Of a DNA stretch of 64,000 nt, positions 4,394 to 54,957 are shown piece by piece. Under the pieces are notes generated by a model that was not told where the DNA came from, did no database searches, and saw nothing but the letters and a program-made list of their open reading frames with translations. Where the stretch lies: NCBI RefSeq assembly GCF_003008615.1, contig NZ_CP027657.1:4526001-4590000 (forward strand), written 5' to 3'. A program made the position numbers and the translations under genes. Numbering within the stretch: the stretch's first letter is position 1; each line of letters begins with the position of its first letter. The stretch is from Pseudomonas mendocina (GTDB taxonomy: Bacteria > Pseudomonadota > Gammaproteobacteria > Pseudomonadales > Pseudomonadaceae).

Positions 4394-4395
4394 TC

Positions 4396-6098: not shown

Positions 6099-6180
6099 TC
6101 CGATTTCCTTTTGGTTATCGGCGGTATGACCGGTGAGTCTGTTTGGGGTTCCGCACCTTCGGCCGTTGTTGTGATGAACG

Positions 6181-6932: not shown

Positions 6933-7040
6933 ATGTCGTTCTTGCCGCAGTTTTCCCCGTTCTTCTGGCTACTGTTTTCCATCATCGTCGCGATTGCCGT
7001 GCTGCGTGAGCTGCGCCGTCCGGGCAAGGATGGCGACTGA
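6933..7040 (+). CDS. 35-residue single-span membrane protein
   Basis: The ORF starts at an ATG with a good ribosome binding site (AAGGAG, 7 bases upstream) and encodes [20 protein letters not shown] plus a basic tail ending RRPGKDGD. One transmembrane helix of about 17 residues is predicted from the hydrophobic run. It lies between the isochorismatase-like gene (divergent) and prmB (downstream, same strand). No function is known to me. The strong RBS and compact hydrophobic design argue that it is real. Confidence 0.6.
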
Positions 7041-7132
7041 TCCGACACGACCAGAACATTGATTGCCACCTGCTTCATGTGTCTTCTGTCGCGCTGGGCT
7101 ACACTTCCGCACTTTTCACCCGGAGGCCGCCC

Positions 7133-8053: not shown

Positions 8054-8059
8054 TTCCCC

Positions 8060-8121
8060 GGTGCGCACGTCGCACCCTACTGGAGTTGCGGCTGACGTAG
8101 GATATGCGCCGCGCGCACCAA
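8060..8121. repeat. Paired REP-like palindromes
   Basis: Two inverted units face each other: GGTGCGCACGTCGCACCCTAC (8060-8080) and GTAGGATATGCGCCGCGCGC (from 8098). They lie between the convergent prmB and the 266-residue membrane protein gene, the typical place for a REP doublet. Confidence 0.65.
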
Positions 8122-8127
8122 GGGCCT

Positions 8128-8928: not shown

Positions 8929-8963
8929 GGGCGTCCTGTGTGCTTGATCGTGTCGTCAATCTG

Positions 8964-9926: not shown

Positions 9927-10254
9927 GATGAGGATAGGGTAGTGGCAGACTGGCATTGGACGCGTTCGGTTGACCAAGGTTCGGGCACTTCTAAAAACTA
10001 GCTGCGTTGTCATCACTGCGTTAGAAAACACGCTCAAATGCTCATTTACAGCCTGTAAAGTCGAACGCGACTCCGGTCGCTCCTCGCCTATTTTTTGCGG
10101 GGCCGCCATCGGTATTTTGCTGACTGCCTCGCCTACGTTTTTAGAAATGCCCGTTCGGGGTGAACTGCAAGTGGGTGGCAGGTATACTCGCCCACCTTGT
10201 GAATCGGGCCTGCGCTGCGGCAGGTCGGAGCTGAATTTCGCGGAGCGTCTTCCC
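9927..10254. other. Intergenic region between alpha/beta hydrolase and aroC
   Basis: About 330 bp between divergent genes. Half of it is the repeat element at 9982-10153. The remaining ~100 bp before aroC must hold its promoter; CGGAG precedes the aroC ATG by 8-9 bases. No small gene is convincing here. Confidence 0.6.
9982..10153. mobile_element. MITE-like element with 16-17 bp terminal inverted repeats
   Basis: Left end CGGGCACTTCTAAAAAC (9982-9998) and right end GTTTTTAGAAATGCCCG (10137-10153) are inverted repeats differing at one position. The interior is non-coding and contains the palindromic core TTTAC-agcct-GTAAA (10045-10059), which also occurs in the repeat at 59387-59401. The size (172 bp), TIRs and absence of an ORF fit a non-autonomous element. 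No certain target-site duplication is seen; TTCGGG occurs near both ends. Confidence 0.6.
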
Positions 10255-11346
10255 ATGTCCGGCAATACCTACGGCAAGCTGTTCACCGTCACCACTGCTG
10301 GCGAAAGCCATGGCCCGGCGCTGGTCGCCATCGTCGACGGTTGCCCGCCCGGTGTCGAGATTTCTCTGGAAGACCTGCAGCGCGACCTCGACCGCCGCAA
10401 GCCCGGCACCAGCCGCCACACCACGCAGCGCCAGGAAGCCGACGAGGTGGAAATCCTCTCTGGCGTGTTCGAGGGCAAGACCACCGGCTGCTCCATCGGC
10501 CTGCTGATCCGCAACACCGACCAGAAGTCCAAGGACTACTCGGCGATCAAGGATCTGTTCCGCCCGGCCCATGCCGATTACACCTACCACCACAAGTACG
10601 GCCTGCGCGACTACCGTGGTGGTGGCCGCAGCTCGGCGCGCGAGACCGCCATGCGTGTGGCCGCTGGCGCCATCGCCAAGAAGTTCCTGGCCAGCCAGGG
10701 CATCGTCATCCGTGGCTACATGAGCCAGCTCGGCCCCATCGAGATTCCGTTCAAGACCTGGGATTCGGTGGAGGAGAACGCCTTCTTCAGCCCCGATCCG
10801 GACAAGGTGCCGGAGCTGGAGGCCTACATGGATCAGCTTCGCCGCGACCAGGATTCGGTCGGCGCGAAAATCACCGTGGTCGCCGAAGGCGTCATGCCGG
10901 GCCTCGGCGAGCCAATCTTCGACCGCCTCGATGCCGAACTGGCCCATGCCTTGATGAGCATCAACGCGGTCAAGGGCGTGGAAATCGGCGCCGGCTTCGC
11001 CAGTGTCGCCCAGCGCGGTACCGAGCACCGCGACGAGCTGACCCCGGAAGGTTTCCTTTCCAACAACGCCGGCGGCATTCTCGGCGGCATTTCCAGCGGC
11101 CAGCCGATCGTCGCTCACCTGGCGCTCAAACCGACCTCCAGCATCACCACGCCGGGACGTTCCATCGACGTCGACGGCAACCCGGTGGACGTGATCACCA
11201 AGGGCCGTCACGACCCCTGCGTCGGCATCCGCGCCACGCCAATCGCCGAGGCGATGATGGCCATCGTGCTGATGGATCACCTGCTGCGTCATCGCGCGCA
11301 GAACGCCGACGTGCGCGTCACCACGCCGGTGCTGCCGCAGTTGTGA
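10255..11346 (+). CDS. aroC: Chorismate synthase
   Basis: 363 residues, the usual length. It catalyses the last shikimate-pathway step, 5-enolpyruvylshikimate-3-phosphate to chorismate, using reduced FMN. Family signatures include [18 protein letters not shown] near the N-terminus, [11 protein letters not shown] and [18 protein letters not shown] in the middle, and [17 protein letters not shown] further on. The start is the ATG at 10255 ([10 protein letters not shown]), with CGGAG upstream. The stop codon overlaps the GTG start of the following transporter gene, implying translational coupling. Confidence 0.97.
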
Positions 11347-12503
11347 CCTGGGCGCGCGCGGCCCTGCCGTACTGGCGGCTGTCCGGCTTCTACTTCTTCT
11401 ACTTCGCCCTGCTCGGGGGTACGGCGCCGTTTCTGGCGCTGTACTTCGACCATCTGGGCTTTGCCCCGGCGCGAATCGGCGAGCTGATCGCCATTCCCAT
11501 GCTGATGCGCTGCCTGGCGCCCAACCTGTGGGGCTGGCTGGGCGATCACACCGGCCAGCGCCTGCTCATCGTGCGTTTCGGCGCGTTGTGCACCCTGGTC
11601 TGCTTCGCCGGTATCTTCTTCAGCCAGAGCTATGCCTGGCTGGCGCTGATCATGGCCACGCACGCCTTCTTCTGGCATGCGGTGTTGCCGCAGTTCGAGG
11701 TCATCACCCTGGCCCATCTGCGCGAGCAGGCGGCGCGTTACAGTCAAATCCGCCTGTGGGGCAGCATCGGTTTCATCGTCGCTGTGGTCGGCCTCGGCCT
11801 GCTGTTCGAGTGGCTGAGCCTGGATGCCTATCCGGCGGCGCTGCTGGTGATCATGGCCGGTATCGTCGTTAGCAGTTTCTGGGTGCCCAATGCGCAGCCA
11901 TTGCTGCGCCCGAGCACGCTGGAACCTGAGGGATTTCTGCGCCAGTTGCGCCGCCCCGGCATCCTCGCGTTCTACCTCAGCGTCGGGCTGATGCAGTTGA
12001 GTAACGGCCCGTACTACACCTTTCTGACCCTGCACCTTGAGGGTATTGGCTACAGCCGCGGCGCCATCGGCCTGTTCTGGGCGCTGGGAGTGGTGGCGGA
12101 GATCCTGCTGTTTCTGGTCATGGCGCGGCTGCTGCAGCGTTACTCGCTGCGCGCGGTGTTGCTGGCCAGCTTCCTGATCACCGCCGTACGCTGGCTTCTG
12201 CTGGGTAACCTGGCCCAGTACCTGCCGGTGCTGCTGCTGGCGCAGTGCATGCACGCCGCCACCTTCGGTGCTTTCCATGCCGCGTGCATCCACTTCGTGC
12301 AACGCAGCTTCGCCGACCGCCAACAAGGCCAGGCCCAGGCGCTGTATGTCAGCCTGGCCGGGATCGGCGGTGCGCTTGGCGCGCTGTATGCCGGTTATAG
12401 CTGGAAGAGCCTGGGCCCGGCCTGGACGTTTGCCATTGCCAGTCTGGTAGCCTTGCTGGCCGCCTTCATCATTGCCACCCGTCTGCCGCCCGAGCGGCCC
12501 TGA
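11343..12503 (+). CDS. MFS transporter (HcaT/LacY-like group)
   Basis: 386 residues starting at a GTG that overlaps the aroC stop (GTGA at 11343-11346). About twelve hydrophobic segments are visible. [13 protein letters not shown] between helices 2 and 3 is the degenerate MFS loop, and the [21 protein letters not shown]-terminus is typical of the PPP/nucleoside-proton symporter-like MFS branch. Chorismate synthase is followed by an MFS gene in P. aeruginosa too. The substrate is unknown; the coupling to aroC is positional, not proof of a pathway link. Confidence 0.88.
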
Positions 12504-12519
12504 ATCGAGTGAACCCGTC

Positions 12520-13059
12520 ATGAGCAGCCTCGCCGTCTACCTGCACACCGCTCCGGAACTGCCGAACAAGGTACTGAACCACGCCGACGACATCGCCAGC
12601 ACCCTGGCGGCGGTGGGCATCGACTATCGCCAGGTGGAGCTGCCGGCTGCGTTGCGCCCTGGCTGCGAGCAGGCCGAGTTCGATGCAGCCTATGGCCTGT
12701 GGCTGCAGGCGTTCATGGGCAAGGAAGGCCACGTGCAGCAGGAGTTGTTCAACCTGCAGCGCAACCATCCGCAGAAGCTGGAATTGCGTGCGCGTCATCT
12801 GGATGAGCAGTCGCAATCGACGGCCAGCGCCTGGTTGTTCCTCGGTGGCTTCGCCCAGCTCAGCCTGCACCTCGACGACCACGTCTACATGCTGCAGGGC
12901 GAGAAGGGCGACCTGTTGTCGCTGCCGGCCTGCACGCGTTACTGGTTCGACCTGGGGGAGGAGCCGCATGCGCTAGTGGTGCGCCTGAGTGCCAGTGACG
13001 AATCCCCCGTGCGCACCGATGACGATATTGCCAGTCGTTTTCCACGACTGGATGATTGA
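12520..13059 (+). CDS. Acireductone dioxygenase-like cupin without metal ligands (probable pseudoenzyme)
   Basis: 179 residues, aligning from end to end with MtnD: SSLAVYLHTAPELPNKVL at the start, HPQKLELRARHLDE in the middle and DDIASRFPRLDD at the end. MtnD binds Fe/Ni through His-x-His-x3-Glu and a distal His. Here these positions are Q97, Q99, S103 and Y141 (HLDEQSQSTASAWLF and CTRYWFDLG), so all four ligands are gone while the cupin scaffold is kept. In P. aeruginosa the aroC-MFS pair is followed by methionine-salvage genes; here mtnB and mtnC are absent beside it. It is probably a retained non-catalytic paralog. Confidence 0.82.
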   Translation: MSSLAVYLHTAPELPNKVLNHADDIASTLAAVGIDYRQVELPAALRPGCEQAEFDAAYGLWLQAFMGKEGHVQQELFNLQRNHPQKLELRARHLDEQSQSTASAWLFLGGFAQLSLHLDDHVYMLQGEKGDLLSLPACTRYWFDLGEEPHALVVRLSASDESPVRTDDDIASRFPRLDD

Positions 13060-13126
13060 TCTGAAGGGAACCCACTCCCGCCGGCGACTATCCTAAGAAG
13101 GCAACCCTTCTCACAGGAGTGTCATC

Positions 13127-13318
13127 ATGGGTTCCACCCTCAATGGCCTGGTCGGCCTGATCATCCTTGCTCTGGATATCTGGGCAATCATCAACGTGGT
13201 CAAGAGCAACGCCGAGACCGGTATCAAGATTCTCTGGATTCTGCTGATCGTGCTGTTGCCGGTGATCGGTCTGATCATCTGGGCGCTGATGGGGCCGCGC
13301 GGCAACGTCAGGATCTGA
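13127..13318 (+). CDS. PLDc_N-type small membrane protein
   Basis: 63 residues with two membrane helices. The sequence LNGLVGLIILALDIWAIINV, then a short cytoplasmic loop (KSNAETGIKILWI) and PVIGLIIWALMGPRG, is the phospholipase-D/cardiolipin-synthase N-terminal (PLDc_N) module found alone in many proteobacteria. AGGAG lies 7 bases before the ATG. The stand-alone module has no known enzymatic role. Confidence 0.85.
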   Translation: MGSTLNGLVGLIILALDIWAIINVVKSNAETGIKILWILLIVLLPVIGLIIWALMGPRGNVRI

Positions 13319-13353
13319 CCTAATCTGCGCTCTGAAATTCGGGGAGATCTCGC

Positions 13354-13851
13354 TCACAATGCCAGTTGCGTCTGCGTTGGCTGCAACACACCCTCGAGTT
13401 CCAATAATTGCTGCTTGCGTGGCAGTCCGCCGGCATAGCCGGTGAGGCTGCCGTCGCGGCCGATCACGCGATGGCAGGGCACGATGATGGAGATCGGGTT
13501 AGCGCCGTTGGCCGTTCCCACCGCACGCACGGCCTGCGGCCTGCCAATGACATTCGCCAGCTCCGAATAGCTGCAGGTGCGGCCGTATGGGATGGCCAGC
13601 AGCGCCTGCCAGACCGCCTGCTGGAAGGCCGTGCCCTTGGGCGCAAGGCGCAGTTCGAACTCACGGCGCTTACCGGCAAAGTACTCATCGAGCTGGCTGC
13701 ACACGACGTCAAGCTGGCGGCCGGCGGGCTGCCAGTCTTCCTCGATACGCCAGGGCCGGCTATCCAGTTCCATCAACAGCAGTTGCAGGCCGCTGTCATC
13801 GGCCGCCAGAAACAATGGGCCGATGGGACTGTCGTGGTAACGGTAGTGCAT
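13354..13851 (-). CDS. ogt: Methylated-DNA-[protein]-cysteine S-methyltransferase
   Basis: 165 residues. The acceptor cysteine is C126 in the PCHRV motif, preceded by the helix-turn-helix/Arg-finger region SYSELANVIGRPQAVRAVG. The protein removes O6-alkyl groups from guanine in a single-turnover suicide reaction. Its ATG is 4 bases from the stop codon of the upstream alkA gene on the same strand, so the two DNA-alkylation repair genes form one operon. Confidence 0.93.
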   Translation of the reverse strand: MHYRYHDSPIGPLFLAADDSGLQLLLMELDSRPWRIEEDWQPAGRQLDVVCSQLDEYFAGKRREFELRLAPKGTAFQQAVWQALLAIPYGRTCSYSELANVIGRPQAVRAVGTANGANPISIIVPCHRVIGRDGSLTGYAGGLPRKQQLLELEGVLQPTQTQLAL

Positions 13852-13854
13852 GGT

Positions 13855-14733
13855 TCAGCCTCCCGAATAGTTGTGCCAGAGATGCGCCGCCGCATAAGCG
13901 CGCCACGGGCGCCAGGCTTCGGCGCGCGCTTTCAGACGACGCGCATCGATACCTTCCACTCCCCAGACAGGTGCCTTGAGCAGGCCCAGGTCGCTGGCGG
14001 GAAACGCGTCTGCCTCACCGAACGCGCGTAGGGCGATGTATTCCGCTGTCCACGGGCCAATACCGGGCAGGGCGCACAATCGCTCGATCAGTGCCGCGCT
14101 GCCTTCTTCCAGATCAAGCTTCAGGCTGCCATCGGCGATACGTGCGGCGAAGTGCTGCAGGCACTGCACGCGTTTGCCGGGCATACCGATGCCTGCCAGA
14201 TCAGCTTCGGCAAGTGCTTGCGGCGAGGGAAACAGATGGCTGATGCCCAGTGTTTCTGGCGTTTCGATCCGTGTGCCGACACGCTGCACCAAGCGCCCGA
14301 CGATGGTGACTGCAGCCTTGACCGTGACCTGCTGGCCGACGATGGCGCGCACCGCCTGCTCGAACGGATCGAAGGCCACCGGCAGGCGCAGGCCGGGATT
14401 GCGTCTCAGCAGCGGCGCGAGGAGCGCGTCGCTGCTGAGGTGCTGGGCAATCGACTCCGGTTCGCTGTCGAGATCGAACATGCGCCGTACGCGTTGTTCG
14501 AGCTGATCGAGATAGGCGGGCGTTGCCAGGCGGCAGCGCAATTCCAGCGCGTTCTGCTCCGGCAGCGGGGCAACTCGAAACCAGCCGGGTGTACCGTCGA
14601 TGCTGAAGCCGCGGCTGTAGCTGTCCGCGCTCAATGACTCCAGCCCAGGAATCGCACGCAAGGCGAAGTGGCTGTGGAACTGTTGCCAGTCCCAGGGCGG
14701 TTGGTAGGGCAGAAGCAGCGTGATGATGTTCAT
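13855..14733 (-). CDS. alkA: DNA-3-methyladenine glycosylase II
   Basis: 292 residues from the ATG at 14733 (MNIITLLLPYQPPWDW). An AlkA N-terminal domain (about 1-110) precedes the HhH-GPD glycosylase domain, with the hairpin LPGIGPWTAEYIALRAFGEA (222-241) and catalytic D248 in FPASDLGL. It excises N3- and N7-alkylated purines. There is no Ada-type N-terminal zinc domain fused to it. It lies directly upstream of ogt in one transcription unit. Longer in-frame starts up to 14865 would encode non-conserved sequence overlapping the REP-rich spacer. Confidence 0.9.
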   Translation of the reverse strand: MNIITLLLPYQPPWDWQQFHSHFALRAIPGLESLSADSYSRGFSIDGTPGWFRVAPLPEQNALELRCRLATPAYLDQLEQRVRRMFDLDSEPESIAQHLSSDALLAPLLRRNPGLRLPVAFDPFEQAVRAIVGQQVTVKAAVTIVGRLVQRVGTRIETPETLGISHLFPSPQALAEADLAGIGMPGKRVQCLQHFAARIADGSLKLDLEEGSAALIERLCALPGIGPWTAEYIALRAFGEADAFPASDLGLLKAPVWGVEGIDARRLKARAEAWRPWRAYAAAHLWHNYSGG

Positions 14734-42561: not shown

Positions 42562-44163
42562 TCAGGGGTGAAACGGCGCTTCTTCCATTATTTCGATCAG
42601 CAGCGGTCTATCCGTAGGCGCCTGGCGCAGCAACTCGGCCAGGTGCGCATGATCCCGTGCGCGCTCGGCGGCGCAACCAAAGCCGCGGGCGATGGCCAGT
42701 AGATCCGGCGTGTAGATGTCCACGGCAATCGGGGTGATGTCGCGGCGCTGCATGTAGCGCTTGATCTCGCCGTAACCGCTGTTGTTCCACAGTAGCACGA
42801 TGATGCCGACCCTGGCTTCGACCGCACTGGCCAGCTCGGGCAAGGTGAACTGGATGCCGCCGTCGCCCATCAGGCTGATCACCGGGCGAGACGGTTCGGC
42901 CAACTTGGCGCCGATGGCCGCCGGCAGGCCGTAGCCGAGGGTGCCGTAGCCGGTGGAGGCGTTGAACCAGCGCCGCGCGCCGTCCAGCTCCACCAGGTGG
43001 TTGCCGCTGTAGACGGTCTGCGTCGAGTCGCCGACGAAGCGAGCATCGGGCAGGGCATCGAGGATGCAGTCGAACAGCTGTCGGTAGTGCGCCCAAGCCT
43101 TGAAATTATCGGCCAGATGCTTCTGCACGGCGGCAGTGCGCTGGGCGCCGGGGCTGTGTTCGCCTGGCTGACGGGGATCGAACTCGGCCAGCAGCATGCG
43201 CATGGCCAGGCGCGCATCGCCCTGGATCGCCAGGTGCGGGGTGAAGTTGCGCTGCAGCTGTTGGCCGTCGATATCGATGCGGATCAGCCGGCCAGGCAGG
43301 CGGAAGTCGCCGTCGAACACCACGTCGTAGTCGGTCTCGCCCAGCTCGGTGCCGATGGCCAGTACCACGTCGGCCTCCAGCGCCAGGTCGCGCACCGGGC
43401 GCAGCGACTGGTTACTGCCCAGCAGCAGCGGATGGCCCGGTGGCAGCAGGCCCTTGGCGTTGATGGTCAGCGCCGTCGGTGCATCCAGCGCGGCAGCCAG
43501 GGCGCGCGCCTCGGCCTCGGCGGCGACGCAACCACCACCGAGCAGCAGCAACGGGCGTTCGGCCTGTTTGAGCAGCCCGGCGGCCTCGCGAATCAGCGTG
43601 CGGTTCGGCGCCGGGCGGCGCACCGTAGGGCGTGGCGCCAGGGACATGTGCGAGGCGTCGGCGGTGATGATGTCCAGTGGCAGCTCGATGTGCACCGGAC
43701 GTGGTCGCTCGCCCTCGAACACGGTGAAGGCGCGGGAGAGAATGGCGGGCAGCTCCTCGACCCTCATCAGGGTATGGCTGAAGGCGGTGACGCCTGCCGT
43801 CATCGCCCGCTGGTTGGGCAGCTCGTGCAGGTAGCCCTTGCCCAGGCCCAGGCGTTCGCGCTCGTTGACGCTGGAGATCACCAGCATCGGGATCGAGTCG
43901 GCGTAGGCCTGGCCCATGGCGGTGAGGATGTTGGTCATCCCCGGCCCGGTGATGATGAAGCACACGCCGGGTTTCCCCGAGACGCGCGCATAACCATCGG
44001 CCATGAAGCCGGCGCCCTGTTCGTGGCGCGGGGTGACGTGGCGGATGCCGCTGGCCGGTAGGCCACGGTAGAGCTCGACGGTGTGCACGCCGGGGATGCC
44101 GAACACGGTGTCGACGCCCCAGGCTTCGAGTTGTTTGACGAGAAATTCGCCGCAGGTGGTCAT
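42562..44163 (-). CDS. Thiamine-diphosphate decarboxylase, probable 5-guanidino-2-oxopentanoate decarboxylase
   Basis: 533 residues of the acetolactate-synthase superfamily. The catalytic Glu is E48 (TPRHEQGAGFMADG). The ThDP motif runs from LMGDGGIQFTLPE to LLWNNSGYG. Genes like this beside gbuA and an SSS symporter are annotated as 5-guanidino-2-oxopentanoate (2-ketoarginine) decarboxylase, AruI-like, whose product leads via 4-guanidinobutyraldehyde to 4-guanidinobutyrate, the GbuA substrate. It is last in the gbuA operon. Specificity is inferred from context; benzoylformate or other 2-oxoacid decarboxylation cannot be excluded. Confidence 0.85.
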   Translation of the reverse strand: MTTCGEFLVKQLEAWGVDTVFGIPGVHTVELYRGLPASGIRHVTPRHEQGAGFMADGYARVSGKPGVCFIITGPGMTNILTAMGQAYADSIPMLVISSVNERERLGLGKGYLHELPNQRAMTAGVTAFSHTLMRVEELPAILSRAFTVFEGERPRPVHIELPLDIITADASHMSLAPRPTVRRPAPNRTLIREAAGLLKQAERPLLLLGGGCVAAEAEARALAAALDAPTALTINAKGLLPPGHPLLLGSNQSLRPVRDLALEADVVLAIGTELGETDYDVVFDGDFRLPGRLIRIDIDGQQLQRNFTPHLAIQGDARLAMRMLLAEFDPRQPGEHSPGAQRTAAVQKHLADNFKAWAHYRQLFDCILDALPDARFVGDSTQTVYSGNHLVELDGARRWFNASTGYGTLGYGLPAAIGAKLAEPSRPVISLMGDGGIQFTLPELASAVEARVGIIVLLWNNSGYGEIKRYMQRRDITPIAVDIYTPDLLAIARGFGCAAERARDHAHLAELLRQAPTDRPLLIEIMEEAPFHP

Positions 44164-44259
44164 GGGCTGCTTCCTTCCGCACCGAGAGAGTAAAGGGGCG
44201 AGGGTGAGTGCATCACCTTCGCCAAATCCCGCCCGAAGGCGGGCATTGCACGAGCTGTA

Positions 44260-45642
44260 TCAGAGCGCATGGCTGACTGTGGCACTGCGCCGCGACAACA
44301 GGCTGGCGACGAAGAAGGTCGTCGTCCCGACGGCCAGGCTGTAGTAGATCGGGGTATTGGCATCCAGGCCGTCGAGGAACATGAACAGCGCGGCGGTGAG
44401 GCTGCCGAGCAGCATGCTGAGGATGGCGGCGAAGGTGCTGGCGCGTTTGAAGTAGATCGCACCCAGCAGCGGCACCAGCATGCCTCCGACCAACAGGTTA
44501 TAGGCCAGGGTCAGGGCGCTGATGACATCGCTGACGACCAGGGATATGGCCAGCACGACGATACCGAGCAGCAGGGTGAAGGCGCGATTCTTGTGCACGT
44601 CACCGTCTTCGTCCCTGCCGCCGAACAGCGGCCACAGATCCTGCGCGGCAGTGGTCGAGGCGGCCAGCAGGCCGGCGCTGGCGGTGGACATCAGCGCGGC
44701 CAGGGCGGCGGCGATGACCAGGCCGCGGATGCCATCCGGCAGGCTGTGCTGGACGATACTGGCGAAGGCGTTGTTGACGTTGTCCAGCTCTGGTAGCAAC
44801 ACCTTGGCGGCCATGCCGATCAGCGCGGCGGCCAGGCCGTAGAGCACGCAGTACAGACCAGCTGCGGTACCGGCCACACGGGCCACACGCTCGCTGCGGG
44901 CGGTGAACACGCGCTGCCAGATGTCCTGGCCGATGAAGATGCCCAGGAAGTAGATCAGGAAGTAGGTGACGATGGTGTCCCAGCCAATGCTGGTGAAGGA
45001 GAAGTAGCTGGATGGCAGGGTGGCGACCAGCGCATCCCAGCCGCCAGCTTCGCTGATCGACAGTGGCATGAGGATGAATACCAGGCCGACGGTCATGATC
45101 ATGAACTGGACGATATCGGTGAGCGTCAGCGACCACATGCCGCCGATGGTGGAGTAGGCGACCACGATACCGCCGCCGACCAGGATGGCGACCCAGAACG
45201 GCATACCGAACAGCACCTGCATCACAGTACCGATGGCGATGGTCGAGGTGGCCGCGATCATCAGTGCGTAGACCAGCATGATGACGGCACTGGCATGGCG
45301 CGCCGTGGGGTTGTAGCGGCGTTCCAGCACCTGGGTGACGGTGTATATCTTCAGTTTCAGCAGTGGCTTGGCGAGGAACAGGCTGATGCCCACGATGCCC
45401 AGGCCCAGTGCGGCGCACAGCCAGAAGCCGGAAATGCCATGCACATAGCCGAGGCGCACGGTGCCGATGGTCGACGCGCCGCCGAGCACGGTGGCCGCCA
45501 TGGTGCCGAGGTAGAAGCCTGGGCCGAGGTTGCGGCCGGCGACCAGATAGTCTTCACGGGTTTTGGCGCGACGCATGCCGTACCAGCCGAGCGTGAGCAT
45601 GGCAGCGACGTAAAGCAGAACGACGAATAGATCTAAAGCCAT
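44260..45642 (-). CDS. Sodium:solute symporter (SSS family)
   Basis: 460 residues from the ATG at 45642, with GGAGAG about 8 bases upstream. Some 13 membrane helices. SSS hallmarks are AGRNLGPGFYLGTMAATVLG in the N-terminal part and STASAGLLAASTTAAQDLW in helix 8-9. Lying between gbuA and the decarboxylase, it most likely imports a guanidino acid such as 4-guanidinobutyrate or a related amino acid with Na+. Confidence 0.88.
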   Translation of the reverse strand: MALDLFVVLLYVAAMLTLGWYGMRRAKTREDYLVAGRNLGPGFYLGTMAATVLGGASTIGTVRLGYVHGISGFWLCAALGLGIVGISLFLAKPLLKLKIYTVTQVLERRYNPTARHASAVIMLVYALMIAATSTIAIGTVMQVLFGMPFWVAILVGGGIVVAYSTIGGMWSLTLTDIVQFMIMTVGLVFILMPLSISEAGGWDALVATLPSSYFSFTSIGWDTIVTYFLIYFLGIFIGQDIWQRVFTARSERVARVAGTAAGLYCVLYGLAAALIGMAAKVLLPELDNVNNAFASIVQHSLPDGIRGLVIAAALAALMSTASAGLLAASTTAAQDLWPLFGGRDEDGDVHKNRAFTLLLGIVVLAISLVVSDVISALTLAYNLLVGGMLVPLLGAIYFKRASTFAAILSMLLGSLTAALFMFLDGLDANTPIYYSLAVGTTTFFVASLLSRRSATVSHAL

Positions 45643-45733
45643 GTTGGCTCTCCAGTTCTTGTAGTTGTTGTGGCCTGAGCAGCAAGGATCCACCCGGCGC
45701 TCAGGCGAGGCGCCGGGCTGTAGGGGGGGCGCC

Positions 45734-46693
45734 TTAGCGGCGTTGAACCCCGGGCAGGACGCAGAGCATTTCGTAGAGCAGGTTGGCGCCGAGCAGCGAG
45801 GTGTTGCCGGTGGTGTCGTAGGGCGGCGAGACCTCGACCAGGTCGCCGCCGATCAGATCCAGGCCTTGGCAGCCGCGGATGATCTCCATCGCCTGGATGG
45901 TAGTCAGGCCGCCGATTTCCGGGGTGCCGGTGCCGGGCGCCCAGGCCGGGTCGATGCCGTCGATATCGAAGGACAGGTACACCGGGCCGCCGCCGACCTT
46001 CTCGCGCACCTCGGCCATCAGCGGCGCCAGCGACTGGTGCCAGCACTCTTCGGCCTGCACCACGCGAAAGCCCTGCTTGCGGCTCCAGTTGAAGTCCTCG
46101 GCGGTATAGCCCTGGGCGCGCAGGCCGATCTGCACCACGCGCTCGCTGTCGAGCAGGCCTTCTTCCTGGGCGCGGCGGAAGGTGGTGCCGTGGGCGATCT
46201 TCTCGCCGAACATGTGATCGTTCACATCCGCATGGGCATCGACGTGCACCAGGCCGATCTTGCCGTACTTCTTGTGCAAGGCGCGCAGGATCGGCAGGGT
46301 GATGGTGTGGTCGCCGCCCAGGGTCAACGGCTTGATATCCAGCTCGACGATCTCGTCGTAGGCCTCTTCGATGATGCGCACGGCGTCGAGCAGGTTGAAG
46401 GTGTTGATCGCCACGTCGCCGATATCGGCCACGTTCAGCGAGTCGAAGGGGGCGGCGCCGGTGGCCATGTTGTACGGGCGGATCATCACCGATTGGGCGC
46501 GGATTTCGCGCGGGCCGAAGCGGGTGCCGGAGCGTAGCGAGGTGCCGATGTCCAGCGGCACGCCGACGAAGGCGACGTCGAGCTGGCGTTTTTCCTCGGG
46601 GCTCTGGATGTGCGGCAGGCGCATCATGGTGGCGATGCCGCCGAAGCGGGGCATTTCATTGCCGCCCAGGGGCTGGTGAAAGGTCTTGTCCAT
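45734..46693 (-). CDS. gbuA: Guanidinobutyrase
   Basis: 319 residues of the ureohydrolase family. It hydrolyses 4-guanidinobutyrate to 4-aminobutyrate and urea. Mn ligands: H129 (LGGDHTI), D152/H154/D156 (HVDAHADV) and D243/D245 (FDIDGIDP). The N-terminus MDKTFHQPLGGNEMPRFGG and C-terminus LLGANLLYEMLCVLPG match P. aeruginosa GbuA closely as I recall it; agmatinases differ there. The promoter region carries the palindrome at 46773-46798, suggesting control by the LysR protein encoded at 52377. Confidence 0.93.
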   Translation of the reverse strand: MDKTFHQPLGGNEMPRFGGIATMMRLPHIQSPEEKRQLDVAFVGVPLDIGTSLRSGTRFGPREIRAQSVMIRPYNMATGAAPFDSLNVADIGDVAINTFNLLDAVRIIEEAYDEIVELDIKPLTLGGDHTITLPILRALHKKYGKIGLVHVDAHADVNDHMFGEKIAHGTTFRRAQEEGLLDSERVVQIGLRAQGYTAEDFNWSRKQGFRVVQAEECWHQSLAPLMAEVREKVGGGPVYLSFDIDGIDPAWAPGTGTPEIGGLTTIQAMEIIRGCQGLDLIGGDLVEVSPPYDTTGNTSLLGANLLYEMLCVLPGVQRR

Positions 46694-46772
46694 GGGTAGG
46701 CCTCAGGCTCGTTCTGGTTGTGGCCGGATTCTTGGCCGGCCAGGTGCGGGGAAAAATCGGCTGGGGCAAAAA

Positions 46773-46798
46773 CTTACTTCAGGATTGTTTGAAGTAAG
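46773..46798. promoter_or_regulatory. Palindromic operator upstream of gbuA
   Basis: Perfect 9-bp arms CTTACTTCA/TGAAGTAAG with an 8-bp spacer, 80 bp before gbuA. The pattern TASTTCA-N8-TGAASTA also occurs at 52102-52123 beside the LysR gene. Confidence 0.75.
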
Positions 46799-46863
46799 GC
46801 TGTAAGCCACGTGTTTGCTGCGTTTTGTGGTGATGCAGAAGGTTGTGGTGCGCACACTGCCGC

Positions 46864-47582
46864 CTATTGCCGGTAGCTGGGATCTAGGCGATCGAGCTTG
46901 CGCAGCCAGGCCTTCCAGATCAGCTGGCGCTGCCATTCGGCGCCCTGCAACTGCTCGCAGGCGTGCTGCGCCAGGTGCGTAGGAATCTCGCTGCAGGGCT
47001 GGCCACCGCCGGTGGCGGCGAGCTGGATCTCGCAGGCGCGATTCAGGTAATGCATGACGTAGAAGGCATCGGCGACGCTGGCGCCGACGCTGAGCAGGCC
47101 GTGGTGGCGCAGCAGCAGGGCGATGTTGTCGCCCAGCGAGGCCTGGATGCGCACGCGCTCGTCCAGATCGAGTGCCACGCCTTCGTAGGCGTGGTAGCCC
47201 AGTCGGCCGTGGAACTCGGTGCTGATCTGGTTGAGCTGCAGCAGGCCGGCGTCCTGGGCGGCCACCGCCATGCCGGCCAGGGTATGGGTGTGGATCACGC
47301 AGTGGGCGTCGTCGCGGGCCATGTGTACGGCGCTATGGATGGTGAAACCGGCGACGTTGTAGTCGGCATTGCCCTCGACCACCTTGCCGTGCATATCCAC
47401 CACGATCAGGTCGCTGGCGCGAATCTCCTCGAAGAACAAGCCGAACGGATTGATCAGAAAGCGCGGCTCGCCGTCGCCGGGCAGGCGCACGGAAAAGTGC
47501 GTGTAGAGCGTGTCGTCCCAGCCGAACAGGGCGGCCAGGCGATAGGCCGCAGCAAGATCGCGGCGCAGGGTGGCGATGTCGT

Positions 47583-47586
<4 letters not shown>
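46864..47586 (-). CDS. Class II aldolase/adducin-family protein
   Basis: 240 residues. Zinc ligands are the His pair in CVIHTHTLAGMA and a distal His in LLRHHGLLSVG, with a Glu/Asp before them. It is overlapped at its start (ATGA) by the fused ABC transporter gene, so it is translated in the same operon. Such proteins cleave or decarboxylate sugar-like or hydroxy-acid intermediates; members also occur in ether or amino acid catabolism. It is the last gene of the TIM-oxygenase-ABC operon; its substrate is unknown. Confidence 0.85.
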
Positions 47587-49097
<1,511 letters not shown>

Positions 49098-49206
49098 ATG
49101 GGGCACCTGCGACTCAAGCCGAAAAAAGGCCGCTGGCCGGAGCGAGTACCGGCCAGCGGGGTGAAGCGGTCATGCCAGGGCGGTATCACCCGCCCAGGTT
49201 TTTGTT

Positions 49207-50013
49207 TCAGGCTTCTTCCAGGTTGTATTTCTTCAGCAGCTCGGCGTACTCGCCGCTGGCCTTGAACTCGTCCAGTGCGGCTTTCAAGGCGTCGAGCAAC
49301 TGGGCATTGCCTTTCTTCACGTAGATGCCCAGCACCTGCGGGTAGATCGAGCCCTTGGAGCTGATAGCGATGCGGCCCTTGGCGCGTTCGACGATGCGCA
49401 GCGAGGCAGCGTCGATTTCCAGGTGCGCCTGGATATGGCCGGAAAGCAGCGCCTGGGTGGTTTCGGCGGTGGTCGGGTATTGGTTGATGGTGATGGCGCC
49501 CGCACCTTGCTCCTTGCAGTAGCCGTCGGAGACTTTTTGCAGCGCCGGAATCCACGAGGTGCCCTGTTGCAGGCCGACGGTCAGGCCGCACAGCTCTTCG
49601 GGCGTCGCTGGTTTCTTCTCGGCGTCGCTGCGCACCATGATCGCCGCACCTGTCTTGGCGTAGGGGATGGCGTCGGCTTTCTCCAGGCGCTCGGGGAGGA
49701 TGTACATGCCGGAAATGATGGTGTCGAAACGGCCCGCGTCGAGGCCGAGGATCAGGTTGGGGAAGCTGATATCGCTGAAGCTGGCGGTAAGGCCCAGGCG
49801 CTTGGCCAGAGCGGCCGAGACTTCCGGGTCGAAGCCGAGCACCTTGTCGCCTTCGTAGTATTCGAACGGCGGGTAGGAAATCTCCATGCCCACCTTCAGC
49901 TCGCCGCTGGCGAGGGTCTTGGGCGTTTCGGCGGCGTGTGCGGTGGCGAACAGGCCAGCGAGGGTGCACGCGAGGGCCAGGGCGGTGGTACGCAGCGGGG
50001 TACGGGTTGCCAT
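49207..50013 (-). CDS. Periplasmic amino-acid-type binding protein
   Basis: 268 residues. A signal peptide ends near AHA/AE (residues ~26-28). It has the type II binding fold of the polar amino acid family: LKVGMEISYPPFEYYEGDKV, GFDPEVSAALAKRLG, and PNLILGLDAGRFDTIISGMY. This is the specificity component for the fused ABC transporter. The ligand is unknown; the neighbourhood points to a guanidino compound or amino acid. Confidence 0.92.
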   Translation of the reverse strand: MATRTPLRTTALALACTLAGLFATAHAAETPKTLASGELKVGMEISYPPFEYYEGDKVLGFDPEVSAALAKRLGLTASFSDISFPNLILGLDAGRFDTIISGMYILPERLEKADAIPYAKTGAAIMVRSDAEKKPATPEELCGLTVGLQQGTSWIPALQKVSDGYCKEQGAGAITINQYPTTAETTQALLSGHIQAHLEIDAASLRIVERAKGRIAISSKGSIYPQVLGIYVKKGNAQLLDALKAALDEFKASGEYAELLKKYNLEEA

Positions 50014-50058
50014 TGTGCTTATCTCCGGATCAATTTTTTGTGTTGGCAGGGGGGAAAG

Positions 50059-51099
50059 TCACAGCGCGCTCGGCTGGTGCTTCAGATGGCCGAAGCTGGA
50101 CGGCCGGCGGGCGCGTTCGGGCAGCTGCAACTGGCCGTCCTCGACGCGCTTCTTGAGGTATTGGTAGGTCTGCAGCGCCTGGCTCCACATGTGCTCGCCG
50201 ATGCTGATGGTTTCGTAGCTCTGGCCGGTGGCTTCGAACTGCGGCAGCGGGCGGATCTGCGTGTGGTAGTCGCAGGCATAGAAGAAGGGGAACGAATAGC
50301 GCTCCTGGCTGACCTTGCGCACGCGGTGCGAGGTGGCGACGAAGGTGCCGGCGCTCATCACTTCGAGCATGTCGCCGATGTTGACGACGAAGGTGCCTTC
50401 GCGAGGCGGGGCATCGATCCACTGGCCGAGGTCGTTCATCACCTCCAGCCCGGGGCGGTCGGCGAGCAGGATGGTGAAGCACTCGTAGTCGGTGTGGGCG
50501 CCGATGCCGGGCGCGTCCTGCGCGTCGCCGTCGAAGGGATAGTGGATCAGGCGCAGTTTCGACGGTGGGAACTTGGCCATCTCGTCGAAGGTGTTTTCCG
50601 GCAGGCCGAGTGCCAGGGCGAAGCCACGGAACAGCGTGCGGCCAAGCTGGAAAATGTGCGCGTAGTAGGCCTGCACCGCCTCCTTGAAGTTGGGCAGGGT
50701 TGGCCAGTCGTTCGGCCCCAGCAGCGGCGTGCCGGCCAGCACCAGCGGGTTGTCGGCGGGGACTTCGAAACCGATGTCGAAGGCTTCCTTGTGATCCGGC
50801 TTGCCGGCGCTGTAGCGCTCTTCGCCCTCGGGTACGAAGCCTTTGTGGCTGGCCGAGGTGCCGATGTAGTGGCGCATCTTGGCGTCCAGCGGCTGGGCGA
50901 AGTAATCCTCGGCGGCGCGGTGCAGGCCGTCGATCAGCGCCTGCTCGATGCCATGGCCACTGATGTAGAGAAAGCCCACGTCACGTGCGGCGCGGCCCAG
51001 GTTCTCGGCCACGGCCAGACGCGCGACCGGGTCACTGCTGAACAGGCCGGCGATGTCGACCACGGGGATTTCGGTGAAATGCTTGGCGTTGTTGTTCAT
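50059..51099 (-). CDS. 2-Oxoglutarate/Fe(II)-dependent oxygenase, isopenicillin-N-synthase-like family
   Basis: 346 residues from the ATG at 51099; GTG just before it is less likely. Fe ligands H202 and D204 ([10 protein letters not shown]) and H258 (TSHRVRKV). The 2-oxoglutarate carboxylate pair R267-S269 is in QERYSFPFF. Its N-terminal half ([28 protein letters not shown]) resembles plant 2-ODD-C23 enzymes, some of which hydroxylate homoarginine or arginine and release guanidine. Given the adjacent gbuA operon, a hydroxylating or guanidine-releasing role is plausible but unproven. In P. aeruginosa a similar oxygenase is beside an amino-acid ABC transporter. Confidence 0.9.
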
Positions 51100-51108
51100 C
51101 ACGGCTCC

Positions 51109-51951
51109 TCAGCGACTGGTGAAACGGTGGAAGTGCTGGCGTTCGCAACGCGCCATCCACTGGTTGAGCTGCCACAGGTCGGCCACCGGTACATCGGTGA
51201 AGGGCAGGTGGTGCAGGTAGCCATCGGGGCCGAATTCGGGGGTCAGGGTGGTGCTCTGCAGGCCGCGTTTTTCCTGGCTGCTCCAGATGCTTTCCCAGTG
51301 GCGCTGATGGAAGGCCAGCACCTCGGCGTATTCCGGCGCGCCGGGGTGCGGTACCTGCGGGCCCTGGTCATAACCGACGCGGGCCTGGATATGGTCGACG
51401 CGCTCGATGAAGGGCGAGAGGTCGTCGGCGGGATCATCCAGCAGGCGCTCGCAGGTCACCAGCCAGTGACTGATGTCGCTGGTGAAGCGCAGCTCGGGCA
51501 CCTGGCGGATCACATCGAGGGTCACCCATGGGCTGTACAGCGAGCGCCCGCGATGAATCTCGAAGCAGACGTGCAGGCCGCAGGCCGAGGCCAGTTCGAC
51601 GGCACGGGCGAAGAAGTCGACCTGTTCGCTCAGTGCCCAGCGGTCGTTGCCGGGCAGTACATTGACCAGGCGCGGCTCGAGTTCGGCAGCCCAGTCGAGC
51701 TTTCTGCGCAGGTCTTCGAGGTGCGCCTGAGGGCTGTCGCTCTGACGCGGCAGTACCGGGGTGGAGGTGAACAGGGTGGCGATATAGGGGACGCTCTGCT
51801 CGCGCAGCAGGCGGGCGTTTGCACTGCGTTGTGCGGTCGTCTCGGGGATACGTGCCTCGATGCCGTCGAAGCCGGCACCGAGCGCTTCGTCGAGCGCTTG
51901 CTGCCAACTGCCGCGATAACCCCAGAGGGTGCGGAAGATTTCCAGTCGCAT
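51109..51951 (-). CDS. Sugar-phosphate-isomerase/AP-endonuclease-type TIM-barrel protein
   Basis: 280 residues. A xylose-isomerase-like TIM barrel is shown by MRLEIFRTLWGYRG, GFDGIEARIPET, CFEIHRGRSL, FTSDISHWLV, VDHIQARVGY and TPEFGPDGY. The expected Glu/His/Asp metal ligands occur in these segments. It overlaps in direction with the oxygenase gene (10-base gap), so they are one operon. These proteins isomerise or epimerise sugar-like or hydroxy-keto intermediates. The substrate is not identifiable. Confidence 0.85.
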   Translation of the reverse strand: MRLEIFRTLWGYRGSWQQALDEALGAGFDGIEARIPETTAQRSANARLLREQSVPYIATLFTSTPVLPRQSDSPQAHLEDLRRKLDWAAELEPRLVNVLPGNDRWALSEQVDFFARAVELASACGLHVCFEIHRGRSLYSPWVTLDVIRQVPELRFTSDISHWLVTCERLLDDPADDLSPFIERVDHIQARVGYDQGPQVPHPGAPEYAEVLAFHQRHWESIWSSQEKRGLQSTTLTPEFGPDGYLHHLPFTDVPVADLWQLNQWMARCERQHFHRFTSR

Positions 51952-52101
51952 GGCCGTCTCCTGGAGAGGGCGAAGGTCAGCGGCAGATTGGCAAAGGGGC
52001 GTGGTGTGGCGCCCGGTGGCGTCCGGTTCGAGCCGGCGCCTGGTTATGGCTGCATTGTTGGCTCAGCGCGCGAACGGGTTAAATCGCGTTGAGCAAATAC
52101 T

Positions 52102-52123
52102 TAGTTCAGCGATTACTGAACTA
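52102..52123. promoter_or_regulatory. Palindromic operator between LysR gene and TIM-barrel operon
   Basis: Perfect 8-bp arms TAGTTCAG/CTGAACTA with a 6-bp spacer. It shares the TASTTCA-N8-TGAASTA arrangement with the gbuA site at 46773-46798, including identical spacing and a GATT in the centre. Confidence 0.75.
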
Positions 52124-52180
52124 TCGATGTTCCGCACGTTGTCCCGGATTTCCTCCGGGCTACCAAGCCAATACCGTTCT

Positions 52181-52201
52181 GTAGGGTGCGCCGTGCGCAC
52201 C
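52181..52201. repeat. REP-like palindrome
   Basis: GTAGGGTGCGCCGTGCGCAC is a clean single unit of the family also found at 3962, 8060, 14821 and 55636. Confidence 0.65.
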
Positions 52202-52376
52202 GGTTTTTACGCCGGCCGGTGCATGGAACTGGGCGATGTAGGAGCGGCTTCAATCGCGAAAGGCGCGGACAAACCCGCTCTGAACGCTGCGCTGCTCTGA
52301 ACGCTGCGCTGCTCTGGATGCCGGCGGTGCTTGTATGGCGCTACACTGGCGCTCTGTTAATCCGCCGTGCGCCCTC

Positions 52377-53270
52377 ATGTCCTTCGCCTTGCCCGACCTG
52401 AAACTGTTGAAGATCTTCGCCTGCGTGGTACGCCACCAGGGTTTTGCCGCTGCGCAGCAGGAGCTGAACCTGTCCACCTCGGCGATCAGCACCTACATGA
52501 GCCAGCTGGAAAGCCAGCTCGGCATCGTGCTTTGTCATCGTGGTCGCGGTGGCTTCAGCCTGACCAGCAAGGGCGAGCTGTTCTACCAGGAAACCCTGCG
52601 CCTGCTTGGCGAGCTCGAGGGCTTCGAGCGCTACTCGGCGGCGCTCAAGGGTGAATTGCGCGGCACGCTCAATCTTGGTGTGCTGGACTCCACCGTCAGC
52701 GACCCGGCCCTGCCGCTGGCCGAGGTGATCGGTGCCTACAGCCAGGAGCACCCGGGCGTGCATATGCACCTGTCGGTGATGAGCCCTTACGAGCTGCAAC
52801 TGGCGGTGCTGGACAACCGTCTTGATCTGGCCATCGGCGCTTTCTCCACGCGCATGAACGGCCTGGTCTACCAGCCGCTGTACCGTGAGCAGCATTGGCT
52901 GTACTGCAGTGAACGGCACGCCTTGTTCGAGCAGCGGCGGATTCCCGAAGAGCTGATCACCCAGCAGCGCATGGTTGGCCGCGGATACTGGAGCCAGGCC
53001 GAGCTGGCCCGACACGGTTTCAAGCACAGCGCGGCGACCGTGGAGTCGATGGAAGCGCAGCTGATCCTGGTGCTTTCCGGTGCCTATATCGGTTATCTAC
53101 CGGAACATTACGCCCAGCCCTGGGTGGATCAGCGCAAACTGCGTGTGCTGCTGCCCGCCACCTTCGGTTACCAGGCACCGTTCTCGCTGATCCTGCGGCG
53201 CGGGCGGACACGTGAGCCACTCATTCAGACGTTTCGTGATCTGCTCAAGACGCAACTGAATCAGACCTGA
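52377..53270 (+). CDS. LysR-family regulator, GbuR-like
   Basis: 297 residues from ATG 52377. The N-terminal winged HTH covers FACVVRHQGFAAAQQELNLS and TSAISTYMSQLESQLG. The effector domain spans about 90-290. The start MSFALPDLKLLKIFACVV and the length fit GbuR, the LysR activator of gbuA in P. aeruginosa, as I remember it; the resemblance has not been computed here. It is divergent from the TIM/oxygenase/ABC operon and a matching palindrome lies upstream of gbuA, so it probably controls both. Confidence 0.85.
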   Translation: MSFALPDLKLLKIFACVVRHQGFAAAQQELNLSTSAISTYMSQLESQLGIVLCHRGRGGFSLTSKGELFYQETLRLLGELEGFERYSAALKGELRGTLNLGVLDSTVSDPALPLAEVIGAYSQEHPGVHMHLSVMSPYELQLAVLDNRLDLAIGAFSTRMNGLVYQPLYREQHWLYCSERHALFEQRRIPEELITQQRMVGRGYWSQAELARHGFKHSAATVESMEAQLILVLSGAYIGYLPEHYAQPWVDQRKLRVLLPATFGYQAPFSLILRRGRTREPLIQTFRDLLKTQLNQT

Positions 53271-53391: not shown

Positions 53392-54957
53392 ATGCGCCAG
53401 AACCTCCCCGTGACTCAGCGGGAAAGAACCTTTCCCGCTGATGAACGCCTGATTTCTACCACCGACCTCAACAGCAAGATCACCTACTGCAACGATGCCT
53501 TCGTCGAAATCAGCGGTTTCACCCGAGAAGAGCTGGTCGGTCAGCCGCATAACCTGGTGCGCCACCCGGACATGCCACCGGCGGTATTCGGCCATATGTG
53601 GGAGACCATCAAGCAGGGCAAGCCCTGGATGGGCATCGTCAAGAACCGCTCGAAGAATGGCGATTTCTACTGGGTCAGTGCCTATGTCACGCCCATTTAC
53701 GAGAATGGTCGGATCGCCGGTTACGAGTCGGTGCGCTCGCTGCCCAGCGACGCGCAGAAGCGTCGGGCGGAAGCCCTCTATGCCCGCCTGCGGGCTGGCA
53801 AGTCACCGGTGCCGAGGCTGGAGTACTGGACGTACGATCTGGTGCGCTCCTGGCCGCTGATCGCCGCGTCACTGCTGATCCTGGCCTCGCACTGGGTGCT
53901 GTCCGGCCCGTGGTTGATGGCCTTCATCCTGCTCACCCTGTTCGCCCTTGGTTCCTACCAGCTGTACCGCACGCGGCAACTCATTCGCGGCACCCTGGAC
54001 GAGCACCCGAAAGCCTTCACCAGTGGCCTGGTGGCACTCACCTACAGTGACAACCGTGGCGCCCAGGCGCTGCTGGACATGGCCATGATCAGCGAGGAGG
54101 CGCGGCTGCAGACGGCACTGACACGGCTGGAAGATGCCGGCGAGAACGTCAAGAAGCGTGCCACGCAGTCGGCCGAACTCTCGCGCTCGGGCGCCCAGTT
54201 GCTCGACCAGCAGCGCGCCGAAACCGATCAGTCGGCCACCGCGATCAACCAGATGGCGGCGACCATTCAGGAAGTCGCGCACAACGTGCAGAACACCTCC
54301 CATGCCGCCGAGGAAGCGGATCGCCTGGCCCGCGAAGGGCGCGATTTGGCCGTTGGCAGCCTGGATTCGATGCGGCAGATGGCCAAGGCGGTCAACGATA
54401 TCGGCCAGGCGGTCAATGAACTGGCCAACTCCACGCAGTCGATCGGCAGCGTTGCCGACGTGATCACCTCGATTGCCGAGCAGACCAACCTGCTGGCGCT
54501 CAACGCTGCCATCGAGGCGGCGCGCGCAGGCGAGCAGGGCCGGGGCTTCGCGGTGGTGGCCGATGAGGTGCGTTCGCTGGCCTCGCGTACGCGGCAGTCC
54601 ACTGAGCAGATTCACCAGATCATCGCTGACCTGCGTGCGGGCGCCGAGCGTGCGGTGGCGACGGCGGGCAAGGGCGAGGAGATTTCCCGTGGCAGCGTGC
54701 AGAGCGTCGAGTCGGTACGCGATGCGTTGGAGGGCATCAGCTCGGCGGTCACGCGTATTACCGGCATGAGCCAGCAGATGGCGGCGGCCTCCGAGGAGCA
54801 GAGCCACGTGGCCGACGACATCAGCCGGCAGATCACCCGCATTGCCCAGCTCTCCGACCACAGTGCCGGCCAGGCGCATCAGGGCGCGGCTATCAGCCGC
54901 GAGCTGGAAGAAATGGCCGACTACCTGCACAGCCTGGCGGAGCGTTTCAACCGCTGA
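53392..54957 (+). CDS. Second Aer-like PAS chemoreceptor
   Basis: 521 residues, the same length as the aer product encoded at 25306-26871. PAS domain ([39 protein letters not shown]), two membrane helices (~155-200, [19 protein letters not shown]) and a signalling domain with [20 protein letters not shown] and the [11 protein letters not shown] segment. It shares architecture and several long motifs with Aer. Its signal may differ; adjacency to the guanidino locus is suggestive only. Confidence 0.88.

Follow-up and report, generated by a model that had tools for sequence, protein, structure and literature searches.

In Pseudomonas aeruginosa, a thiamine pyrophosphate (TPP)-dependent enzyme covers the conversion of 2-ketoarginine to guanidinobutanal, and GbuA covers that of 4-guanidinobutyrate to gamma-aminobutyrate (GABA); the LysR regulator of gbuA is named GbuR in this species. 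In 2025, a paired hydroxylase and lyase acting on an alkylguanidine were described in Vreelandella boliviensis: MgdH (UniProt A0A265DXP8) hydroxylates methylguanidine, and the resulting stable hemiaminal, N-(hydroxymethyl)guanidine, is cleaved by MgdL (A0A265DXW6), whose catalytic residues are D49 and R51 (PMC12508155). Two further reports (PMC12329707, PMC11018352) deal with the ethylene-forming enzyme (EFE) and plant homoarginine-6-hydroxylases, 2-oxoglutarate (2OG) oxygenases whose target is the carbon next to a guanidino nitrogen. The locus described here lies in Pseudomonas mendocina, at 42562..53270 of the 64,000-nt stretch that was analysed (NZ_CP027657.1, GCF_003008615.1, 4,526,001-4,590,000; hereafter the window). 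It comprises a gbuA operon, a divergent LysR gene and, between them, a second operon encoding a TIM-barrel protein (TIM), a 2OG/Fe(II) oxygenase (OXY), a solute-binding protein (SBP), a fused permease-ATPase of the ATP-binding cassette (ABC) type and a class II aldolase-like protein (ald2).

We propose, with a probability of roughly 0.48, that the second operon is an accessory import-oxidation module of the guanidinobutyrate regulon. SBP and the fused permease-ATPase would import an omega-guanidino carboxylic acid, and OXY, acting as an MgdH-type 2OG/Fe(II) enzyme, would hydroxylate a carbon on the guanidino nitrogen, most likely that of an N-methyl group, to give a long-lived hemiaminal. TIM would split this hemiaminal, the job that MgdL performs on N-(hydroxymethyl)guanidine. 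The guanidino acid thus freed, either 4-guanidinobutyrate or a closely related compound, would be converted to GABA and urea by GbuA, with the TPP enzyme feeding the same pool from 2-ketoarginine. A single LysR activator, probably responsive to 4-guanidinobutyrate, would switch both operons via a common palindrome. The scheme starts from features visible in the sequence itself, namely the gene content, the genome-wide rare common site, the conserved regulon, the family of OXY and the TIM-OXY pairing; from these we infer the substrate, the TIM reaction, the inducer and the direction of flow. The features of the locus, in window positions, are as follows.

42562..44163, minus strand: TPP-dependent 2-ketoarginine (5-guanidino-2-oxopentanoate) decarboxylase (NF005712)
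44260..45645, minus strand: sodium:solute symporter of the SSF family, start uncertain (PF00474)
45734..46693, minus strand: gbuA, guanidinobutyrase (full-length match to 3NIO)
46774..46797, no strand assigned: regulatory palindrome 5' of gbuA, TTACTTCA-N8-TGAAGTAA, about 80 nt from the gbuA start
46864..47586, minus strand: ald2, class II aldolase/adducin family, an optional member (PF00596; NF005451, 321 vs 207 bits)
47583..49106, minus strand: fused permease-ATPase, ABC importer of the polar amino-acid type (PAAT; PF00528 and PF00005)
49122..49158, minus strand: terminator-like hairpin and T-run between the SBP and permease-ATPase genes, judged by eye from the sequence
49207..50013, minus strand: SBP, family 3 solute-binding protein (PF00497)
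50059..51099, minus strand: OXY, 2OG/Fe(II) oxygenase of the MgdH-like radiation (PF14226 and PF03171)
51109..51951, minus strand: TIM, xylose-isomerase-like barrel, proposed hemiaminal lyase (PF01261, 46.9 vs 31.1 bits)
52101..52124, no strand assigned: regulatory palindrome in the divergent gap between TIM and LysR, TTAGTTCA-N8-TGAACTAT, about 150 nt upstream of TIM
52377..53270, plus strand: LysR regulator, GbuR-type, divergent from TIM (start 52377 or 52335)

The first-pass annotation of this DNA had described these genes in this order, with the second operon between gbuA and a divergent LysR gene and the same palindrome at both promoters, and had taken the two operons to be linked. All nine genes were seen with the expected domains, and the palindrome is real: the pattern TTASTTCA N6-9 TGAASTA was found in exactly two places in the whole 5.77 Mb genome, upstream of gbuA and of TIM, and the same pattern reversed, used as a control, gave no match in that genome. 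A copy of the site lies in the gap from the end of ald2 (46864) to the start of gbuA (46693), so gbuA probably has its own promoter; the gbuA operon and the second operon are probably separate units that bear the same site.

The footprint of this site was followed across related loci. Sites scoring at least 12 of 16 were observed upstream of gbuA in 27/27 cases and upstream of TIM in 62 of the 63 cases where TIM does not lie behind gbuA, including units far from gbuA, the lone lower scorer being the Acetobacter locus L095. By contrast, the count was 0/12 for TIM genes that follow gbuA and share its direction. Comparing these two groups of TIM genes gives the best natural control: a TIM gene within reach of transcription from the gbuA promoter goes without a site of its own. 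At the same threshold, the control counts were 0/79 for OXY, 0/78 for SBP, 32/737 for other genes and 7/450 for dinucleotide shuffles. Over 1.63 Mb, 87 sites scored at least 13, with 60 upstream of a called TIM gene, 25 upstream of gbuA and two elsewhere, one of the latter (in L056) preceding a TIM match for which no frame was called and the other lying in L096. From this tally, most of the 32 other genes are taken to border the same gap as TIM or gbuA.

A looser exact pattern, run over 35 whole genomes, matched 44 distinct places, of which 25 are upstream of gbuA, 17 upstream of TIM and two are others; one of these two lies upstream of the gbuA of G211, which leaves one elsewhere. Both gbuA and TIM carry the looser pattern in 12 of these genomes. 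Over the same 35 genomes the reversed strict pattern gave four strand matches (one in G023, three in G211), and the strict pattern itself had no match in four (G481, G117, G113 and G409). Because the pattern came from the two window sites themselves and was loosened later, the footprint is not blind; its weight rests on the genome-wide rarity, the unlinked units and the negative loci with TIM behind gbuA.

The likely owner of the site is the LysR protein. Thirty gbuA loci were compared. For 23 of them the source genome gave no TIM match, and all 23 have a LysR gene, 84-94% identical to that of the window, divergent within about 450 bp of gbuA. The window LysR is therefore probably the gbuA regulator. 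Since adjacency of gbuA and LysR is usual in the genus, the insertion seen in this window is one of several arrangements. Both marks of a GbuR regulon, a divergent LysR orthologue and a common operator upstream of gbuA, were found, and the two operons are probably one regulon of the GbuR type, in which binding of LysR to the palindrome is predicted.

The identity of the gbuA operon is clear from similarity. The gbuA product is, by full-length similarity, guanidinobutyrase: it aligns with the solved guanidinobutyrase 3NIO over 319/319 residues at 655 bits, compared with 324 for 3NIP and 204 for 4DZ4, and is nearer to guanidinobutyrase than to 3-guanidinopropionase or agmatinase. The TPP decarboxylase matches NF005712 (5-guanidino-2-oxopentanoate decarboxylase) at 856 bits, above the cut-off of 500, as an AruI-like member of that family, and the next best place in the same genome is 34% identical. 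Three gbuA-like genes, 86-91% identical, were observed in a single genome of the genus (G480).

How widely does the module occur, and in what company? The loci compared were the best 80 of 186, or 81 with the window, and frames were called by our own script trained on the window genes. TIM, OXY, SBP and ABC were all called in 77 of the 81, the exceptions being L056, L064 and the Acetobacter loci L095 and L098. Of 149 genomes of the genus, 35 had TIM, 34 of these with OXY adjoining; in a phylum sample, TIM turned up in 9 of 398 genomes. Pseudomonas fluorescens FW300-N2E3 (locus L065) is one carrier of the module. The gbuA gene is present in 133 of the 149 genomes, in 34/34 of those with TIM and OXY versus 99/114 of those without TIM (Fisher p 0.02; the genomes are related and so not independent samples); this table, like that for TIGR03427 below, leaves out G027, which has TIM without OXY. 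The first-pass annotation had offered conservation of gene order across Pseudomonas as the check on its link between the operons. That link was borne out, since the operons co-occur, gbuA stands in the same locus in 27 of the 80 other loci, and the same site lies upstream of both operons even when they are unlinked.

Linkage takes three different forms. In the first, TIM...ald2 is followed by gbuA (L020-L030, L032 and L033, and without ald2 in L031 and L034); in the second, the order is gbuA-TIM-OXY-SBP-ABC-ald2-TPP (L035, and L037 with a split TPP gene); in the third, it is gbuA-NCS1 transporter-TIM...TPP (e.g., L054). L172, a locus from a different family of the same taxonomic order, reads LysR / gbuA-TIM-OXY-SBP-ABC-ald2, with gbuA at 72% identity. 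In L035-L037 and L172, gbuA thus stands first in the row that also holds the module, an arrangement most easily understood if the module makes the substrate of GbuA. No gbuA was found within the fetched stretch in 53 of the 81 gene-called loci, and such units still bear the palindrome. Members of a recBCD-like cluster are near 42 of these 53 loci, one scanned member being RecD; these neighbours are a constant chromosomal place, not a functional hint. The aldolase gene, which had been counted as part of the second operon, is so in the window but optional elsewhere; among the gene-called loci it occurs in 17 of the 28 that include gbuA and in 4 of the 53 that do not. It can travel with gbuA in the absence of the oxygenase unit, as seen from the order gbuA-ald2-SSF in L194 of G457, a genome outside the TIM-positive set. 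Among solved structures, the best match of ald2 is 3OCR.

OXY has the HxD...H and RxS motifs of its family (H202, D204, H258, R267 and S269; PF14226/PF03171). Its nearest paralog in the same genome, 55% identical, is in L177 (G000:C1:4000000-4018000, 1823-14252), a locus with three Guanidine-I riboswitches and one Guanidine-II riboswitch, two TIGR03427 binding proteins and a gene of the urea carboxylase family (TIGR02712, 1892 vs 1304 bits). The paralog is followed by a gene of 310 residues (9768-10700 of L177) with a D-x-R motif at 55-57, for which no Pfam or NCBIfam model matched. The pair is tentatively read as MgdH-MgdL, its gene order, motif and context fitting the published description (PMC12508155). 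Similar pairs were found in L263-L268. Given the riboswitches, binding proteins and MgdH-MgdL-like pair of L177, the strain may use methylguanidine.

All 83 TIM-partnered OXYs, including those of L172, L173 and Acetobacter, formed one clade (support 0.994) within the MgdH-like radiation in a 120-sequence tree for which a third paralog (L178) served as root; some deeper nodes of this tree are weak. The tree took in 30 of 120 listed proteins (every fourth one), and L267 was left out. OXY does not fall among the sequences with an MgdL-like neighbour, the TIM-partnered sequences forming a clade of their own; the neighbour was checked in 6 of 36 MgdH-like rows. Placement in this radiation supports the guanidino-compound chemistry suggested in the first-pass annotation. 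Three positions separate the groups: K86 and K181 were found in 80/80 TIM-partnered OXYs versus Ser and Gln, respectively, in 36/36 MgdH-like rows, and H279 in 80/80 versus Asp in 32/36. The 80 rows leave out L173 and two Acetobacter rows, the latter two having K86, K181 and H279 as well. The extra basic residues fit a carboxylate-bearing substrate. No Rfam match was found in the window, so no guanidine riboswitch stands beside OXY, and no guanidine-type riboswitch was found in L168 or L172-L176.

TIM has four invariant residues, E131, D159, H187 and E239, which we take to be metal ligands by analogy with the xylose-isomerase-like superfamily. Its predicted structure has a model confidence (pLDDT) of 90.6, and no PDB chain was matched by sequence at E 0.1. 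TIM is not MgdL itself: it is a PF01261 barrel, and the MgdL-like gene beside the OXY paralog has no Pfam match. TIM may nevertheless have a like function. TIM is retained while the adjoining oxygenase differs. The OXY of L173 is at 47% identity, and enzymes of the FA_desaturase family stand beside TIM in L174 (9879-10895), L175 (7919-8803) and L168 (6873-7889). The L174 copy has a weak match (31 bits) to the GntB arginine-hydroxylase model, and these desaturase-type neighbours are a possible new family of alkylguanidine hydroxylases. In L176 (4468-9855), a TIM relative of 39% identity has a GbcA-like Rieske oxygenase nearby, and it directly follows genes for S-(hydroxymethyl)glutathione dehydrogenase (694 vs 544 bits) and S-formylglutathione hydrolase (411 vs 282). 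This formaldehyde-disposal pair before TIM is expected if TIM frees formaldehyde, and fits demethylation. We tentatively suggest, with a little under even confidence, that TIM founded a second, unrelated family of guanidino hemiaminal lyases on the xylose-isomerase fold, kept while 2OG, desaturase-type and perhaps Rieske oxygenases are exchanged around it, and that in Pseudomonas it serves an undescribed oxidative guanidino-acid branch under GbuR.

The binding protein indicates what kind of ligand is imported. In one alignment of 79 orthologous binding proteins, the carboxylate-binding Arg was kept in 78/78 with a residue at that position, whereas the position of the alpha-ammonium Asp was Ile in 79/79; the nearby Tyr and Trp were found in 78/78 and 79/79, respectively. 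The roles of Arg and Asp are assumed from HisJ-type proteins. With Asp replaced by Ile, SBP does not qualify as a PAAT amino-acid binding protein, and the combination of a kept Arg and a lost Asp suggests that the ligand, for instance an omega-guanidino acid, has a carboxylate but makes no ordinary alpha-amino contact. The substrate had been described in the first-pass annotation as guanidino or amino-acid-like; the guanidino part has gained support, and the amino-acid-like part is weakened by the Ile. Column 224 of the alignment is His in 28/28 gbuA-linked proteins and Gln in 51/51 others, possibly a difference in specificity or a matter of phylogeny.

The Acetobacter loci show how the module might work elsewhere. 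No GbuA match was found in the Acetobacter genomes at E 1e-20. Near the TIM-OXY-ald2 loci L095 (1561-4837) and L098 (1248-3089) are genes resembling arginine deiminase or dimethylarginine dimethylaminohydrolase (ADI/DDAH), 84% identical to each other, and L095 has in addition a carbamoylase-type gene (N-carbamoyl-amino-acid hydrolase). Together, such enzymes could possibly substitute for GbuA by making an amino acid from a guanidino acid. GhrA-like reductase genes, below the curated cut-off, lie nearby in L172 and L098, with a 60% relative in L095.

The alternative that best survives is that OXY hydroxylates 4-guanidinobutyrate at C4 and that TIM yields guanidine and succinic semialdehyde, a guanidine-releasing route parallel to GbuA. 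A single ligand, 4-guanidinobutyrate, would then be inducer, transported ligand and substrate and would account for regulator, importer and enzyme. The carbon attacked, that beside the guanidino nitrogen, is also the site hydroxylated by MgdH, EFE and the plant homoarginine hydroxylases. TIGR03427, a binding protein of the guanidine/urea type, is commoner in genomes with TIM and OXY (27/34 versus 53/114; Fisher p 0.0008, relatives not being independent). However, this marker is absent from 7 of the 34, the window has no guanidine riboswitch, and in L176 the formaldehyde genes next to TIM suggest a one-carbon product instead. Such a route would also compete with GbuA, whose gene heads the row in L035-L037 and L172. 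We regard it as unlikely, if a serious contender.

Distinctly less probable is an alpha-amino-acid substrate (arginine, homoarginine or methylarginine), hydroxylated by OXY as by EFE and the plant homoarginine hydroxylases. The PAAT-type transporter, the relationship of OXY to EFE-like proteins and the 2-ketoarginine decarboxylase of the neighbouring operon agree with this, but the alpha-ammonium Asp of SBP is Ile in every ortholog, and an arginine product would presumably need no co-regulation with GbuA. At a similarly low probability stands the reading in which TIM is a true isomerase and ald2 acts as aldolase or decarboxylase on the hydroxylated carbon chain, with the GhrA-like reductases of L172 and Acetobacter handling the product. 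The tetronate pathways have an aldolase or decarboxylase role comparable to the one proposed here for ald2. The isomerase relatives of the TIM fold, the GhrA-like genes and the frequency of ald2 in gbuA-linked loci are in its favor, and the near absence of ald2 from loci without gbuA tells against it. That the two operons adjoin by chance is very improbable and was rejected, because the many loci without gbuA in the fetched stretch, which would suit it, are outweighed by the palindrome footprint on unlinked operons and by the three different linked orders.

Several observations also weigh against the proposed scheme of an import-oxidation module that feeds GbuA. The enrichment of TIGR03427 in module genomes fits guanidine release better, and ald2 has no clear role in the proposed scheme. 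Most relatives of the TIM fold are epimerases or isomerases of sugars, which makes isomerase chemistry an equally good match to the fold. Neither the window nor L173 showed formaldehyde genes next to the module. The TIM proteins of L168 and L173-L175 cannot feed GbuA, because their genomes lack it (no GbuA match in G191, G239 and G246, and a match of only 45% in G027). L173, basal in the OXY clade, has R86, Q181 and E279, which means that the basic residues are not universal in TIM partners. The MgdL identity of the L177 gene is deduced from gene order and the D-x-R motif.

Two further observations were made in the window. The hairpin and T-run at 49122-49158 is GC-rich, as if lowering expression of the transporter core. 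Frames resembling PAS receptors (by eye) adjoin the module at 53392-54957 and in L171 at 10092-11405, which may be a coincidence.

Overall, the earlier interpretation of the region, a guanidino compound taken up and oxidized under common control, was right in outline, with the substrate still inferred; the new and bold element is a TIM-barrel enzyme as guanidine hemiaminal lyase. Titles and abstract beginnings in the open-licence literature yielded no description of such a module, a weak negative. If the proposal holds, this would be a second hydroxylase-lyase pair, present in 34 of 149 genomes of the genus and tied by a rare operator to the guanidinobutyrate pathway, and oxidation of guanidino acids would be common in Pseudomonas metabolism. 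The named genes permit testing of which guanidino acids Pseudomonas meet in nature.

What distinguishes this module from the systems already described? Like MgdH-MgdL, it has a 2OG/Fe(II) hydroxylase of apparently the same radiation, a partner gene and a guanidine theme, with TIM adjoining OXY as MgdL adjoins MgdH and a fitting MgdH-MgdL pair in the same genome (L177). Unlike MgdH-MgdL, in which the partner is a beta-barrel, its partner is a TIM barrel, it stands under LysR and a palindrome instead of riboswitches, and it has a PAAT importer and K86/K181 in OXY. EFE and the homoarginine-6-hydroxylases are related to OXY, but they have amino-acid substrates and a product that decays spontaneously. 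The xylose-isomerase-like barrels, such as D-tagatose 3-epimerase, UlaE, IolE and DgpB-C, share the fold of TIM; however, identity is 8-19% in the matches listed, and TIM stands beside some oxygenase in the TIM loci examined. As in the gbuA-gbuR system of Pseudomonas, familiar from P. aeruginosa, there are gbuA, a divergent LysR gene, an upstream palindrome, a transporter and a TPP gene, whereas here an extra import-oxidation operon with its own copy of the site lies between gbuA and LysR.

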